Made by a program: the position numbers and the translations under genes
Shown: piece after piece, positions 3,911 to 9,793 of the stretch
Layout: the number at the start of each line of letters is the position of its first letter
Position numbering within the stretch: the first letter of the stretch is position 1
Assembly (NCBI RefSeq): GCF_002174125.1
Contig: NZ_NEXX01000001.1
Coordinates: 124,001-188,000, forward strand
DNA: 64,000 nt
Source of the DNA: Acinetobacter populi
GTDB lineage: Bacteria; Pseudomonadota; Gammaproteobacteria; Pseudomonadales; Moraxellaceae
Reading direction: 5' to 3'
Notes under the pieces: generated by a model
Told to the model about the DNA's origin: nothing
The model's input: the letters and a program-made list of their open reading frames with translations, nothing else
Databases searched by the model: none

Positions 3911-6889
3911 CTATTTCCATTGCCAGCCAATAGAGGCCCCCCCTCCAAAATCCCCCTGAGTATTGGCAGTACTTGCAGCTTTGAAAATAAATTTATTATT
4001 CTCTGTAACACCACTCACACCAATAGAAATACCTTGCTCACCTTTCCATGTACCAGCACCTATACTGACCATTTTATATCCTGCACTACTTGGTTGAGGT
4101 AAAGAAGCAATTGCTATACTGGATGCTACGGCCGCATAAGTATCTTGTTTAAACTCCTTAAAGTTCTGATTAAGGTGATTAATACGACTATCCGTATAAC
4201 GTTGTGCACTTTGTAAAGTTGTGGCATTACCATGATCGGCATAACTCTGAGCTGATTTTAAAGTTGCAGTATCCGCATCTTTCATCTGTTTTACATTGAC
4301 TGCATCGGTGTCCTGTGTGCCTGCTGCAACATGGATAATTTGGCGTTCACTATCAACAGCACCCACCGAAACAGTATTATCACGGTTTGATGTAGAATTA
4401 TTGCCAAGTACTACAGCGTTCTTAGCTTGAGTATTAATGTTATTTCCGAGTACAAATGTGTTATCCCCTGCAACGCTATTATTATTCCCCACTGCATAAC
4501 TATCATTACCACTGACCATATTCGGATCGCCAATTGCGCCTGCATTATGACCTGTCACTTTATTACCAACACCGATACTGATCGATTGGTTACCCTGAGC
4601 AATTGCTCCCGCGCCAAGTGCAATCGCATCTGTTCCTGTCGCTTGTGGCTTGCTTTGCGTTTTTGAAATATTAGATTGAATTGCAAGATAAGGATTGGTT
4701 TGACTATCAAGCCATTGTTGTTCAGTTCCCTGAAAACCATTTTGCACTGCAATTTCAAAGGTACTCTTGCCCTCTAAACCCTGATCACCTTTTGCACCAT
4801 CTTTGCCATTTAACCCTGCTATTCCTTGATCACCCTTGTCACCTTTATCTCCTTTTGCGCCATCTTTGCCATTTAAACCATCAAGCCCGTCTTTACCATC
4901 CTGACCATTGAGTCCATTTAAACCCTGCAAGCCTTGATCACCTTTTAACCCCTGATCGCCTTGTAAGCCCTGCAATCCTTGTTCGCCTTTATCCCCTTTT
5001 AAACCTTGTAACCCTTGATCACCCTTGTCACCTTTATCTCCTTTTGCACCATCTTTGCCATTTAACCCTGCTATTCCTTGATCACCTTTGTCACCTTTAT
5101 CGCCCTGATCTCCTTTTAGACCCTGTAAGCCTTGCTCACCTTTAAGTGAAGTCAACCATTCTGGTTCTGTGCCTGCAAAACCATTATTCACCGCAACCTG
5201 ATACGCACTATCCCCCTGTGCGCCCTGACCACCGCCAGCATTATTTTCTACTGTAGTCAAACGGCTATCTAAACTTGTCAATTTACTATCTACAGCAGTA
5301 AAGGCACTGCCAATATTCTGATAATTATTATTCTGAATCACATAGGTGGGAGCAGTAAATACACCATTATTAAAGTTTGCTCCACCCCCAAAGCCATTTG
5401 TTAGCATTTTTATTTGGGATAGATTGACGGCATCAGTATCAAATACACCTGCGGCAACATGGGTGATCTGACGTTCATTCCCTACCGAACCCACCGAAAG
5501 GGTATATTCACGATCTGCAATCGCCTGATAACCGATTGCGGTACTTCCTATAGCTTGTGCTTCACTTTGATAACCTATTGCGATACTTTCGTCTGCTAAT
5601 GCCGTATTGCCATAACCTATTGCACTACTATAGCCACCTGATGCTATATTGCCAAAACCCATCGCACTACTTTCTATTCCTGATGCGGTATTTTCAGACC
5701 CTAAGGCACTACTACCATCTCCACTCGCCTGATTCGCTGCACCAAAGGCATTACTGCCTGAACCTGATGCAGTATTTTGATAACCCACAGCACTACTATT
5801 AGTACTTTCTGCTGTATTATTTGCACCCAATGCACTGCTTAATTCATCGAAAGTTTTATTGTTATATCCAACAGCACTATTTCTTTCCCCTAATGCCTCA
5901 TTCATATAACCTACAGCATTACTTCTTGCCTCGGATACCTTATTGCTATAACCTAATGCACTACTGTAATCCTCTGATGCCAGATTAAAAGAACCCACGG
6001 CATTACTTGCTACACCCACCGCCATATTTATATTGCCCAAAGCACTACTCTGAAAACCTGATGCTGTATTGACATACCCTACTGCACTTGCTTCATTTGA
6101 CGCTTTGTTCCTAAACCCCACTGCACTACTATTTTTTCCAGCCTCATTGCTATAACCTAATGCACTACTGGCATCCCTTGATGCTGTATTTCCAGAACCA
6201 AAAGCATTACTATCTCGACCTAAGGCTTTATTTGCATAACCAACGGCATTACCAGCATAACCAGATACTTCATTAGAATAACCTATCGCATTACTTGCCT
6301 CATTTTCTGCTTTATTATAAGAACCTATCGCATTACTCAAGTGAACTGATGCTTTATTATTCGTACCTATAGAACTACTCTCGCTACCTGATGCTTCATT
6401 ACTAGCGCCTATCGCATTACTAAAAACCCCAGTTGCTTTATTAGAGTAACCTATCGCATTACTTGCCGCACTTTCTGCAGTATTACCAACACCTATCGCA
6501 TTACTTGATTTATTTTCCGCTTTATTACCAAAACCTATTGCATTACTTGATTCACCTGCTGCATTATTATTTACACCGATTGCACTTCCAAAAGCGCCTG
6601 ATATATTGTTTGAATGGCCACAAGCAATAGAAAAGCCAGTATTGGCAACACTTCCCCCATTACCACCACCATTTAACGTACAAGTACTTGCCCAAACCAC
6701 ACTATTTGCAATCACTCCCGACAGTGCCAGTACAAATATAGACAACTTAAAAATGGGTGCTATAGATGATGTAGCAGGAATCACCGTTGTCTTTGAATGA
6801 GCAGTAGCATGACCACTTTTAGCAAGCTCTGATGCCACCACCATACAACCTAATGTTTTATTCCATATTGTTTTAAAAATACGATTCAT
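3911..6889 (-). CDS. Trimeric autotransporter adhesin with collagen-like stalk (992 aa)
   Basis: This is a complete YadA-family type Vc adhesin. It has an extended signal peptide region and signal sequence (residues 1-67, cleavage near 'VVWA'), then about 35 head repeats of the 'SNAIG..N.A' type. A neck follows with 'DTDAVNLSQIKMLTNGF'. The Gly-X-Y collagen-like stretch (about residues 583-706) is flanked on both sides by 'NGF.GTE..WL' motifs. A second short head and neck and a C-terminal YadA-type anchor (about residues 900-992) complete it. The product should be exported by Sec, trimerise and insert its anchor in the outer membrane. It shares the leader, signal region and a near-identical central cassette with the downstream paralogue, but its anchor is clearly different. 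A LuxR-type regulator lies 97 bases upstream on the same strand. The ligand cannot be read from sequence. Confidence 0.93.
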   Translation of the reverse strand: MNRIFKTIWNKTLGCMVVASELAKSGHATAHSKTTVIPATSSIAPIFKLSIFVLALSGVIANSVVWASTCTLNGGGNGGSVANTGFSIACGHSNNISGAFGSAIGVNNNAAGESSNAIGFGNKAENKSSNAIGVGNTAESAASNAIGYSNKATGVFSNAIGASNEASGSESSSIGTNNKASVHLSNAIGSYNKAENEASNAIGYSNEVSGYAGNAVGYANKALGRDSNAFGSGNTASRDASSALGYSNEAGKNSSAVGFRNKASNEASAVGYVNTASGFQSSALGNINMAVGVASNAVGSFNLASEDYSSALGYSNKVSEARSNAVGYMNEALGERNSAVGYNNKTFDELSSALGANNTAESTNSSAVGYQNTASGSGSNAFGAANQASGDGSSALGSENTASGIESSAMGFGNIASGGYSSAIGYGNTALADESIAIGYQSEAQAIGSTAIGYQAIADREYTLSVGSVGNERQITHVAAGVFDTDAVNLSQIKMLTNGFGGGANFNNGVFTAPTYVIQNNNYQNIGSAFTAVDSKLTSLDSRLTTVENNAGGGQGAQGDSAYQVAVNNGFAGTEPEWLTSLKGEQGLQGLKGDQGDKGDKGDQGIAGLNGKDGAKGDKGDKGDQGLQGLKGDKGEQGLQGLQGDQGLKGDQGLQGLNGLNGQDGKDGLDGLNGKDGAKGDKGDKGDQGIAGLNGKDGAKGDQGLEGKSTFEIAVQNGFQGTEQQWLDSQTNPYLAIQSNISKTQSKPQATGTDAIALGAGAIAQGNQSISIGVGNKVTGHNAGAIGDPNMVSGNDSYAVGNNNSVAGDNTFVLGNNINTQAKNAVVLGNNSTSNRDNTVSVGAVDSERQIIHVAAGTQDTDAVNVKQMKDADTATLKSAQSYADHGNATTLQSAQRYTDSRINHLNQNFKEFKQDTYAAVASSIAIASLPQPSSAGYKMVSIGAGTWKGEQGISIGVSGVTENNKFIFKAASTANTQGDFGGGASIGWQWK

Positions 6890-6986: not shown

Positions 6987-8129
6987 TTATGATGAAAAAC
7001 AGGACAAAGACAGGATTTGTACCAATAGGGCAATGAGTTGATTCTGATTATAGGTGTTGGTTTTTCTAAAAATTCGAGCCAGATGTGTTCTAGCGGTGGT
7101 AATACTGATCTCTTCTTGCATTGCGGCTTCTTTTAGCGATTGCCCATTCAATAAATAACTCGCAATTAATGCCTCTTTGGGACTCAGTCCTAATAACTGT
7201 TGTATTTTTAAATGATTAGACATGGTTTGATCAAAACCCAATTGTCGAATAAATATTCCCACCACACTATGATTCACAGGTAAAGATAATGTCTGTTGGT
7301 CATAAACCGGAACAACTGACACCACAAATTTTAATAAAGGCATCAATGGATTGCTTAAAATAAGCTCTTGGTTACCCACCAATACATGATGTATTCGACT
7401 CACATTCAACATAAACTGATGCAATTGTTTTTGTTGCTGTGCAATAACCGTCGTGATATGACCTTTCTTTATCCAAATAGGTGAATTAGCTAACGTTAAA
7501 AATCGCTCTGCAAGTTGATTAGCATATAATAATTTACCCTGTGCTGTGGTTAAAACAAAACCAATATTGGCATGATCAAAATTTTGCCCTTTTTGTGTCA
7601 ACAATAATTCACCAAATTGCTGTCGCAACTTTGCCGCCTGTACCAATATCGGTGCAATATATTGCATTTTTTGTAAATCTATCTGGTCAAAATCGGGTTG
7701 CAACCCGCCACGATTAATTACAAAATAGCCAGAACCTTGCTGATTTTCTGCAACTTTAATATTTAATGCACTATGTTCATCCTGTGGACGATACCATTCA
7801 TTATAAAATATAGAATTCTTAAATTGCTGTTTCGGCAGAATCATTTGATCGGTATAAATTGTGCCAATCTTGTCCTGTTGCATTGAGCGCCATAAAATAT
7901 TATGCGATACAATTTCATGTTGATATAAATCCGCATAATAAGGATCACAATTCCCTGCAATGACCTGTGTTGTATTATTCTCATATTCATAACAAAAACA
8001 GGCGGCAGACCCTGAAAAGATATCCTGTATTTTTAAAATTACATCTTTCCAAGGCAACAATGCAGATGCAGCATCAAATAATTGATGTTGTAGATCTAAC
8101 ACGCGTTTTTCGCATAGCATATCAGACAT
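6987..8129 (-). CDS. LuxR-type helix-turn-helix transcriptional regulator
   Basis: A 380-residue regulator with a GerE/LuxR-type DNA-binding domain in its last 70 residues ('LLGLSPKEALIASYLLNG', 'EISITTARTHLARIFRKTNT'). The N-terminal and central parts look like a PAS/GAF-type sensor domain but carry no motif that names a ligand. ATG at 8129 is chosen because AAGGGG lies six bases upstream; a TTG one codon earlier is possible. It is transcribed in the same direction as the two adhesins and ends 97 bases before the first of them, so it is a candidate regulator of adhesin expression, which is inference from position only. The lack of a phosphoacceptor domain argues against a classical two-component response regulator. 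Confidence 0.8.
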   Translation of the reverse strand: MSDMLCEKRVLDLQHQLFDAASALLPWKDVILKIQDIFSGSAACFCYEYENNTTQVIAGNCDPYYADLYQHEIVSHNILWRSMQQDKIGTIYTDQMILPKQQFKNSIFYNEWYRPQDEHSALNIKVAENQQGSGYFVINRGGLQPDFDQIDLQKMQYIAPILVQAAKLRQQFGELLLTQKGQNFDHANIGFVLTTAQGKLLYANQLAERFLTLANSPIWIKKGHITTVIAQQQKQLHQFMLNVSRIHHVLVGNQELILSNPLMPLLKFVVSVVPVYDQQTLSLPVNHSVVGIFIRQLGFDQTMSNHLKIQQLLGLSPKEALIASYLLNGQSLKEAAMQEEISITTARTHLARIFRKTNTYNQNQLIALLVQILSLSCFSS

Positions 8130-8306
8130 CAATTTCCCCTTGGCAATTGGGTCAGCGTTATTATTTTTTCCTTATCGATATATTTATAGCGCAAATTTTG
8201 ACATAAATACTAGTTTTTATAAATTCCGTTACAATGTGAGGCAACGGAAAATACTCAGCAATCATTCAATCCTTTTTTAAATCAAAAAGATTTGTATAGG
8301 ATCGTT

Positions 8307-8648
8307 CTACTCATCCCGAGTAAGCACTTCAAATAATTCTATTTCAAAGATTAAATCCGAATTGGCTGGAATCATTTGACCAATTTGACGTTCACCATAG
8401 GCAAGATGCGCAGGTACAATAAGTTTTCGTTTACCTCCCACTTTCATGCCCATAATTCCCTGATCCCAGCCTTTGATTACCCGACCTGTACCAATCACGC
8501 ACTGGAATAATTGACCGCGGTCATGGGAGGAATCAAATTTTGTTCCATCATTTAACCAGCCAGTATAGTGGGTTTTAATCAATGCACCTTTGACTGCTGC
8601 CTTCCCCTCACCCACGATTAAGTCTATGATTTCCAACTGTTCTGTCAT
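8307..8648 (-). CDS. FKBP-type peptidyl-prolyl cis-trans isomerase
   Basis: A 113-residue single FKBP domain with the usual core, 'THYTGWLNDGTKFDSSHDRG', then 'VIKGWDQGIMGMKVGGKRKL' and 'IPAHLAYGER'-like ends. It has no signal peptide, so it should act in the cytoplasm as a proline isomerase or chaperone. The size matches the minimal FkbP/FKBP12-like bacterial family. It stands alone, divergent from the LysR gene to its right, with 234 bases between the two starts holding a candidate small RNA on the other strand. Confidence 0.92.
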   Translation of the reverse strand: MTEQLEIIDLIVGEGKAAVKGALIKTHYTGWLNDGTKFDSSHDRGQLFQCVIGTGRVIKGWDQGIMGMKVGGKRKLIVPAHLAYGERQIGQMIPANSDLIFEIELFEVLTRDE

Positions 8649-8720: not shown

Positions 8721-8750
8721 TTGATTTTGCTTTTTTAATCGCCATATTAA
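8721..8750 (+). promoter_or_regulatory. Candidate sigma-70 promoter for leader or small RNA
   Basis: TTGATT (8721-8726) and TATTAA (8745-8750) are separated by 18 bases. It would start a transcript near 8757 ending at the strong terminator at 8829-8868. The boxes are imperfect and the call is tentative. Confidence 0.3.
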
Positions 8751-8756
8751 TAAACA

Positions 8757-8868
8757 AGATTGATAGATAAGAATCATGCCCAATGATCAATTTTAAGGTA
8801 ATCTGTTCTCCAGGCAGATTATCGTATTTGCAGTCCTTGTTCCCCTTTGGACTGCATTTTTTTATTTT
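8757..8868 (+). ncRNA. Candidate two-hairpin small RNA or attenuator leader before LysR gene
   Basis: No protein gene lies upstream on this strand, yet there is a strong Rho-independent terminator. Hairpin I is GGTAATCTG (8797-8805) with CAGATTATC (8815-8823), with a C-containing loop (TTCTCCAGG). Hairpin II is TGCAGTCC (8829-8836) with GGACTGCA (8849-8856), with a loop containing TTCCCC, followed by T7-A-T5. This is the architecture of an intrinsically terminated small RNA, or of a leader controlling read-through into the LysR gene that begins 14 bases after the T-run. The 5' end is a guess from a weak promoter. Confidence 0.5.
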
Positions 8869-8882
8869 TGGGAAGATCATTG

Positions 8883-9764
8883 ATGAATCTTAATCAGGAA
8901 CTTTTACTGGTATTCAAAACCGCGATAGAAACCGGATCATTTTCTGCCACCGCGCGAAAACTGGGTAAAGCCCCCTCAGCTGTGAGTATGGCGATTTCCC
9001 AACTCGAAGATGAATTGGCATTAAGTCTGTTTGATCGCTCCAAACGCGAACCACAACCAACACCGGCTGCTTTAAGTCTTTACCGATCCACCTTACAAAC
9101 ACTAGCCGTGATGCAACAATGGCAGAACCACGCTCTACAACTTGCCGATCATGTTGAACCAGTCTTGAGTATTGCCTTTGCCACAGAATTGGAAAGCCTG
9201 ATCTGGACCAATATATTTCGGCAACTTAGTGAATATTATCCTTTATTAAAATTAGAAATTTTAACCTTACCGCAACAGGAAGCACTGGAATCGGTATTGT
9301 CGGGTCGCGTCAATTTTGCCATTTTACTGGAACGTCAAAGCCTAAATGGGATTGAACAATTTATCGAAATTGGTAAAGAAAATATGGTGGCTGTAGTTGC
9401 GCCTAATCACCCCTTATACCATCAAAAAGCCAGTTATGATGATTTATTACAGCATCGCCAGATCGTGTTTAATAGCCGTGAAAATCAATCCACCTCAGTT
9501 TTGCAATTGTCTTATCATAGTTGGCAAACAGATAATCAATATTTTGCTGTGGATATTATTCATGCTGGTCTTGCTTGGGGCTTTTTACCGCAATCCTATA
9601 TTGAAGATCATTTAAAAAATCAAACGCTGGCACTCATTGATGTAGAAGATTTCTGTCCAAGTATTACCTTATGTATCGATCTGGTCTGGAGTCGGGAAAG
9701 ACCCTTGGGTAAAGCTGCACAGCACTTTATCGAGCTGGTCAAACAATCAAGACATAAAGCATAA
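8883..9764 (+). CDS. LysR-family transcriptional regulator
   Basis: A 293-residue protein with the LysR winged helix-turn-helix at residues 3-62 ('FKTAIETGSFSATARKLGKA', 'AVSMAISQLEDELALSLFDR') and a periplasmic-binding-like effector domain after about residue 85. The ATG at 8883 is preferred over an upstream ATG at 8847, because it puts the helix-turn-helix at the usual distance from the N-terminus and follows a GGGAAG ribosome-binding site. The upstream start would also lie inside the terminator hairpin. It faces the FKBP gene divergently and ends convergently with glnS over a shared terminator. Its target and effector are unknown. Confidence 0.88.
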   Translation: MNLNQELLLVFKTAIETGSFSATARKLGKAPSAVSMAISQLEDELALSLFDRSKREPQPTPAALSLYRSTLQTLAVMQQWQNHALQLADHVEPVLSIAFATELESLIWTNIFRQLSEYYPLLKLEILTLPQQEALESVLSGRVNFAILLERQSLNGIEQFIEIGKENMVAVVAPNHPLYHQKASYDDLLQHRQIVFNSRENQSTSVLQLSYHSWQTDNQYFAVDIIHAGLAWGFLPQSYIEDHLKNQTLALIDVEDFCPSITLCIDLVWSRERPLGKAAQHFIELVKQSRHKA

Positions 9765-9793
9765 AAAAGACCTCAAATTTGAAGTCTTTTTTA
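9764..9793. terminator. Bidirectional terminator between LysR gene and glnS
   Basis: AAAAAAGACCTCAAA pairs with TTTGAAGTCTTTTTT with one mismatch. The arms carry A-runs and T-runs at both ends, so it can serve both converging genes. Confidence 0.8.

Follow-up and report, generated by a model that had tools for sequence, protein, structure and literature searches.

The stretch of DNA analysed (the window) comprises 64,000 nucleotides from Acinetobacter populi, positions 124,001 to 188,000 of contig NZ_NEXX01000001.1. The element described here lies on its + strand between an FKBP-type prolyl isomerase gene (fklB-like; 8307-8648, - strand; Pfam PF00254, FKBP_C), which is the divergent upstream neighbour, and a gene for a LysR-family regulator (8883-9764, + strand; Pfam PF00126, HTH_1, and PF03466, LysR_substrate), which lies downstream and outside the conserved unit. 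On the - strand, a gene for a LuxR-type regulator with a GerE domain (6987-8132, TTG start listed) adjoins that of a large trimeric autotransporter adhesin (3911-6889), which has YadA head, stalk and anchor domains together with collagen-like repeats. Between lysR and glnS, an inverted repeat at 9762-9793 is flanked on either side by runs of A and T; the terminator scan lists it on the - strand, and it is likely to be a two-way terminator.

The element consists of two hairpins. Hairpin 1 (8797-8823, + strand) has a covarying stem of 11 bp, formed by 8797-8807 and 8813-8823, and the loop CUCCA (8808-8812); the hexamer CUCCAG (8808-8813) is the presumed anti-Shine-Dalgarno pairing site. The second hairpin, also covarying, belongs to an intrinsic terminator (8829-8863, + strand) with an 8-bp stem (8829-8836 paired with 8849-8856), a variable loop of 12 nt, UUGUUCCCCUUU (8837-8848), and a run of seven U (8857-8863), after which a second U run reaches 8869. 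From the ends of the two U runs it is 19 and 13 nt to the lysR ATG at 8883. A simple terminator scan does not list this terminator, because the 12-nt loop exceeds the 8-nt limit of the scan.

The folding energy of 8795-8868 is -25.0 kcal/mol, against a mean of -10.3 for shuffled sequences (z -5.93; none of 200 shuffles as good), and hairpin 1 folded alone gives a z of -4.46. The signal is less clear in the longer stretch 8740-8879 (z -2.28; 4 of 200 shuffles equally good). The opposite strand of 8795-8868 folds too (z -3.33), as is expected for inverted repeats, and the U run favours the + strand as that of the element. A first-pass annotation had described a terminator with a preceding hairpin ahead of the LysR gene and no gene before it on that strand. 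Both statements are borne out, the nearest upstream gene, fklB, being on the other strand. The loop it had given as TCTCC is exposed only as CUCCA, since its initial T still pairs, at the top of the stem.

To survey other genomes, two covariance models, built from nine and from 100 sequences, were run on 175 Acinetobacter genomes. The second model finds the element, normally in single copy, in 131 of the 175 genomes at E < 1e-5, the next match being at 2e-4, so that the two-hairpin structure, which the first-pass annotation had proposed to look for in other Acinetobacter, is indeed widespread there. At E ≤ 0.01 each model matches 133 Acinetobacter genomes; the matches in G015 and G173 with the first model, and in G060 and G061 with the second, were set aside as noise. 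The source sequences of the first model all carry CUCCAG, and members without it would therefore have received lower scores. With the covariance model the element was not found in 44 of the 175 genomes, a few of which are incomplete, and the sRNA gene would thus be dispensable. Simpler searches recover far less: a blastn search matched six of 99 genus genomes, some at other loci, and 12 of 175 contained hairpin 1 as an exact pattern.

Among 249 genomes of the family, the covariance model gives 77 matches at E ≤ 0.01, of which 68 are in Acinetobacter and nine in other members. Five of these nine (L084-L088, from two further genera, g8 and g10) are real and all lie downstream of lon. The other four (L089-L092, Psychrobacter-like, the genus being guessed) have a hairpin 1 without CUCCAG and none of the tested neighbour genes; they were taken as false and dropped before the counts of CUCCAG, promoters, unpaired probabilities and terminators given below. 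Among 293 genomes of the order, only two match at E ≤ 1e-4, and both are Acinetobacter.

The window's own stretch has no match in the plasmid and phage collections. With the element of a relative, six A. baumannii records match, all of them apparently chromosomes or pieces of a chromosome, and two contigs filed as phage match but hold chromosomal genes. The chromosomal lon-rlmH region is present both in L052 (NZ_CP064203.1), a record of 3.97 Mb classified as a plasmid, and in L053 (CAKLQF020000025.1), a contig classified as phage. Matches in seven Priestia-type plasmids are confined to 33 nt in the terminator half and were taken as chance.

The stems are maintained by compensatory change. In 100 members (90 distinct sequences), standard pairs make up 95.6% of 1620 cells, and 16 of the 18 pairs have changed on both sides; none of 500 shuffles reaches this level, and sliding the partner by 1-3 columns lowers the paired fraction to 25-43%. 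This alignment is fitted to the covariance model. A MAFFT alignment of nine sequences, which involves no model fitting but a structure set by hand, is 96.9% paired with seven pairs changed on both sides (none of 500 shuffles), and four of five measures agree; the fifth, the number of pair types, is not distinctive (185 of 500 shuffles as high). The stems are thus conserved, contrary to what the first-pass annotation had named as grounds for rejecting its proposal.

The loop of hairpin 1 is invariant. CUCCAG is present in all 127 members whose loci were read (103 of 103 distinct sequences), and with the element folded alone the mean unpaired probability of CUCC over the 103 sequences is 0.96, exceeding 0.8 in 99 of them. 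The element thus exposes a conserved pyrimidine seed complementary to the Shine-Dalgarno sequence. The C run of the terminator loop is not conserved, CCCC being found in the inner terminator region of only 15 of the 103 distinct sequences. Of the two C-rich loops that the first-pass annotation had regarded as pairing sites, therefore, that of hairpin 1 stands and that of the terminator does not.

The 127 loci comprise those of 121 Acinetobacter genomes, out of the 131 matched strongly, together with five other members of the family and one named A. baumannii record. In 119 of them lon lies upstream on the same strand, and rlmH is mostly the next gene. Seven loci are at the fklB and/or lysR site: those of the window genome, A. 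puyangensis, A. qingfengensis, G132, G165, G142 and G031. The lysR gene is directly next in only three, the other four lying near fklB, with no lysR within the sequence read; in A. puyangensis, where the element precedes lysR, the layout is the same as in the window. At one further locus the neighbours are rlmH and a glyoxalase-like gene, and the stretch read does not include lon.

In a tree of rlmH DNA, all five of the moved genomes that were tested group together in a single clade (support 0.966), which is surrounded by lon-linked members from inside and outside Acinetobacter; the tree is of one gene, and its other nodes are weaker. Because the moved genomes form one clade among lon-linked members, the place between lon and rlmH is taken as the older one, and a single move explains the layout in the window. 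A distance of 13 kb now separates lon from rlmH in the window genome, both genes being 100-115 kb away from the element; in the stretches around these genes the covariance model finds no second copy.

The genomes without a model match were also considered. In 20 of these rlmH was located, and in 17 lon also lies within the stretch. The first 420 nt of these 17 lon-rlmH intervals hold lon's own terminator and then other sequence; some genomes without a match have CTCCAG inside the next gene, yet give no match to the model. Since the lon terminator is followed by other sequence without a model match, the sRNA gene looks lost rather than merely diverged.

Several observations suggest that the element is transcribed on its own. 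In the window, a putative -35 box, TTGATT (8721-8726, + strand), a weak match to the consensus, and a putative -10 region, CATATTAA (8743-8750, + strand), lie in a block that is also conserved in A. puyangensis, and with a predicted start at about 8755 (± 5) and an end at the first U run, the predicted sRNA would extend over 8755-8863 (+ strand), approximately 108 nt. The predicted promoter place in A. puyangensis matches the consensus at 8 of 12 positions, and in the window sequence the promoter scan favoured another site (9 of 12). In other members TTGAAA stands at this place, followed at 16-18 nt by a -10-like box. A promoter of the type TTGAAA/TTGACA plus TATAAT, matching at 11 of 12 positions, is present in 53 of 123 upstream stretches against one of 123 shuffled ones, and no match reaching 11 of 12 was found in the other 70. 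Judged by eye from the promoter-like boxes, the A. baumannii form would be approximately 140-145 nt long, as compared with about 108 nt for the window form.

On the lon side, an intrinsic terminator separates the two genes in 78 of the 85 members in which the element directly follows lon (interval < 230 nt), as against none of the 85 intervals when shuffled once each; for all lon-linked members the count is 108 of 119. By these signals the element appears to be a transcription unit separate from its neighbours, with a weak promoter match in the window.

That the element is a small RNA, as the first-pass annotation had suggested, is very likely in view of its genus-wide conservation, the covariation, the promoter-like block in many members, the intrinsic terminator, and its occurrence at two unrelated sites. 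We consider it probable, with good though not full confidence, that it is a free-standing gene for a trans-acting regulatory sRNA whose loop pairs with Shine-Dalgarno sequences. Its structure, conservation, covariation, invariant loop and relocation, as well as the terminator that separates it from lon, can be read directly from the genomes compared; the events from transcription to repression that we infer from them would be as follows. RNA polymerase would start near 8755 and stop at the terminator, giving in the window species an RNA of about 108 nt with these ends, in which hairpin 1 would display CUCCAG at its tip. The loop would pair with GGAG-type ribosome-binding sites (CUGGAG, UGGAGU) of target mRNAs and block the start of translation, probably with the help of Hfq bound at the U-rich 3' end. 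Such a block is proposed because the exposed CUCCAG is the only fixed part of the element and because CUCC has precedents in Aar and AbcR1/2. The ancestral place of the gene is between lon and rlmH; it moved once, to the fklB locus, in the window's clade, and in the three genomes noted above it stands before lysR.

Other explanations of the element may be weighed against this one. The first-pass annotation had also offered a cis-acting leader or attenuator, in which transcription of lysR begins upstream and the terminator decides passage into the gene. The distances of 19 and 13 nt from the U runs to the ATG, which leave little room for a separate promoter, and the identical layout in A. puyangensis are in its favour. 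As the conserved role, however, it is quite improbable and was not upheld, for lysR is the next gene in only three of the 127 members, with 119 after lon, four near fklB without lysR and one by rlmH; the stems and the loop are kept whatever gene is downstream, and the minimum-energy folds contain no anti-terminator pairing. Since there is so little room for a promoter between the terminator and the lysR start, a lineage-specific effect is conceivable, and in the window species only, read-through of the terminator may affect lysR. The position of 119 of the 127 members, downstream of lon and co-directional with it, would also suit an sRNA cut from the 3'UTR of the lon mRNA and left behind after rearrangement. 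This origin is nevertheless very unlikely, considering the predicted intrinsic terminator that intervenes in most adjacent members, the promoter-like block upstream of the element in many members, and the window clade, whose element has no lon in front.

A further explanation accepts the RNA but not its targets: the partner of the hairpin may be not the ribosome-binding sites of mRNAs but a protein or a different small RNA, with sponging as one example. An invariant loop on a covarying stem fits a protein-binding or RNA-kissing site as well. Against this, CUCC is complementary to the GGAG core of Shine-Dalgarno sequences and has been proven as a seed in Aar and AbcR; moreover, no Rfam family matches. 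Binding of this kind is therefore regarded as unlikely. Finally, in an AT-rich genome, and for an element known from sequence alone, a chance hairpin next to an ordinary terminator, with no regulatory RNA at all, has to be considered. It is contradicted by the fold z, the covariation, the invariance of the loop and the presence in 131 of 175 genomes, and is given almost no credence.

With pairing to Shine-Dalgarno sequences as the preferred mechanism, candidate targets were sought in 1.22 Mb, a third of the window genome. Among its 1108 ORFs, CTGGAG in the Shine-Dalgarno zone gives 15 candidate starts, with exbD-like and rutB-like genes among the candidates; as background, TGGAG is present in this zone of 59 of the ORFs and CTGGAG in nine. 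Both gltJ and gltK of the window species have CTGGAG ahead of the start, but as a conserved target they were rejected, since 46 genomes yielded 19 gltJ loci and only four of these have CTGGAG.

The Shine-Dalgarno zone of hns has TGGAG in 27 of 32 genomes bearing the sRNA (CTGGAG in six of these) and in four of six without it (Fisher p 0.30). Two rows of G006 were left out of this tally, and six loci had no blast match in the first count. These six loci, all from genomes without the sRNA, were then read by coordinates and all have CGGAG, which brings TGGAG to four of 12 genomes without the sRNA; no p value is given for the enlarged set, because the near-identical start regions of the six genomes indicate close kinship. 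Since shared descent can account for the pattern, hns is a lead only, and its Shine-Dalgarno sequence a weakly indicated candidate target. Taken over all loci tallied (start regions L293-L338), the Acinetobacter hns Shine-Dalgarno sequence is UGGAG in 31 of 44, a form that stands before only the 59 ORFs of the window genome noted above. A more speculative scheme, in which the sRNA sets the level of H-NS through the hns UGGAG and so reaches the whole H-NS regulon, the terminator having also become a lysR leader in the window lineage, is distinctly doubtful.

A single-copy gene with covarying stems and an unchanging loop, present in 131 of 175 genomes including A. baumannii, suggests a core post-transcriptional regulator. 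With the covariance model, its place and strand can be located in other Acinetobacter genomes, and existing interactome data may be examined again between lon and rlmH. Its one relocation and several apparent losses are natural experiments on the role of the sRNA.

As to previous descriptions, Rfam 15 has no family at the gathering score in the whole window (best E 0.31 at a lax threshold). Kroeger 2018, a dRNA-seq list, is reportedly the source of the A. baumannii sRNA numbers. The A. baumannii copy may already be numbered there or in the RIL-seq (PMC12802169) or Hi-GRIL-seq supplements. The part of the literature searched yielded neither the element's sequence letters nor a description of it. 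By RNA-seq, 78 new sRNAs (Art sRNAs) were reported by Weiss 2016 in A. baumannii AB5075, where 6S RNA is at 2,870,610 (PMC5320573, Table 1). The place of the element in AB5075, judged from other genomes and not from AB5075 itself, is expected approximately 13-14 kb or 65-67 kb after 6S. In the table of that paper no row fits the lon-rlmH place, and none lies between 2,875,954 and 2,982,596 (PMC5320573).

The two expected distances derive from the following records. In four A. baumannii records (CP040048.1, NZ_CP077849.1, NZ_CP064203.1 and NZ_CP104448.1), each with two 6S places, the element lies approximately 65-67 kb after the full 6S, one being counted across the record start. In two shorter records (CP035931.1 and NZ_CP043459.1), only the last 52 nt of 6S are present, 12.9 and 13.6 kb before the element, and in G007 the full 6S is at 14 kb. 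These arrangements fit the insertion, at the gene for 6S RNA, of an island of approximately 52 kb. The sRNA ABUWs054/art50 (148 nt, 5.2 kb after 6S) had been suggested by the gene-number spacing from ABUW_2969 and by the predicted length. This identity was rejected on account of the distances above and because a 16-kb stretch around one copy of the element contains no 6S.

Among known systems, the sibling sRNAs NgncR_162/163 of Neisseria are said to be global metabolic sRNAs with unpaired pyrimidine pairing sites; they are a sibling pair of another family, likened to the element by description only. The rhizobial AbcR1/AbcR2 (alpha-r15) resemble it in having a CUCC-type anti-Shine-Dalgarno motif, CUCCUCCC, in a hairpin loop (PMC8844928). 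They are, however, alphaproteobacterial, with two such motifs per RNA and tandem copies, and their sequence was compared with the element through Rfam scans only, which gave no match of this kind. Another likeness is to Aar of A. baumannii and A. baylyi, an sRNA of about 100 nt with two predicted 3' hairpins and an intrinsic terminator, which covers the carO ribosome-binding site with a CUCC seed whose alteration abolishes binding (PMC11472050). The CUCC of Aar is at nt 29-32, unpaired and near the 5' end, whereas that of the element is in a hairpin loop approximately 55 nt from the 3' end; similarly, aar is at 861,839-862,019 in AB5075 (PMC5320573, Table 1), whereas the element follows lon, which is ABUW_2865 in that strain (PMC5727411). 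Locus and CUCC position thus rule out identity with Aar, and the element, belonging neither to Rfam families nor to Aar, is classed as a new sRNA family within a kind already known.
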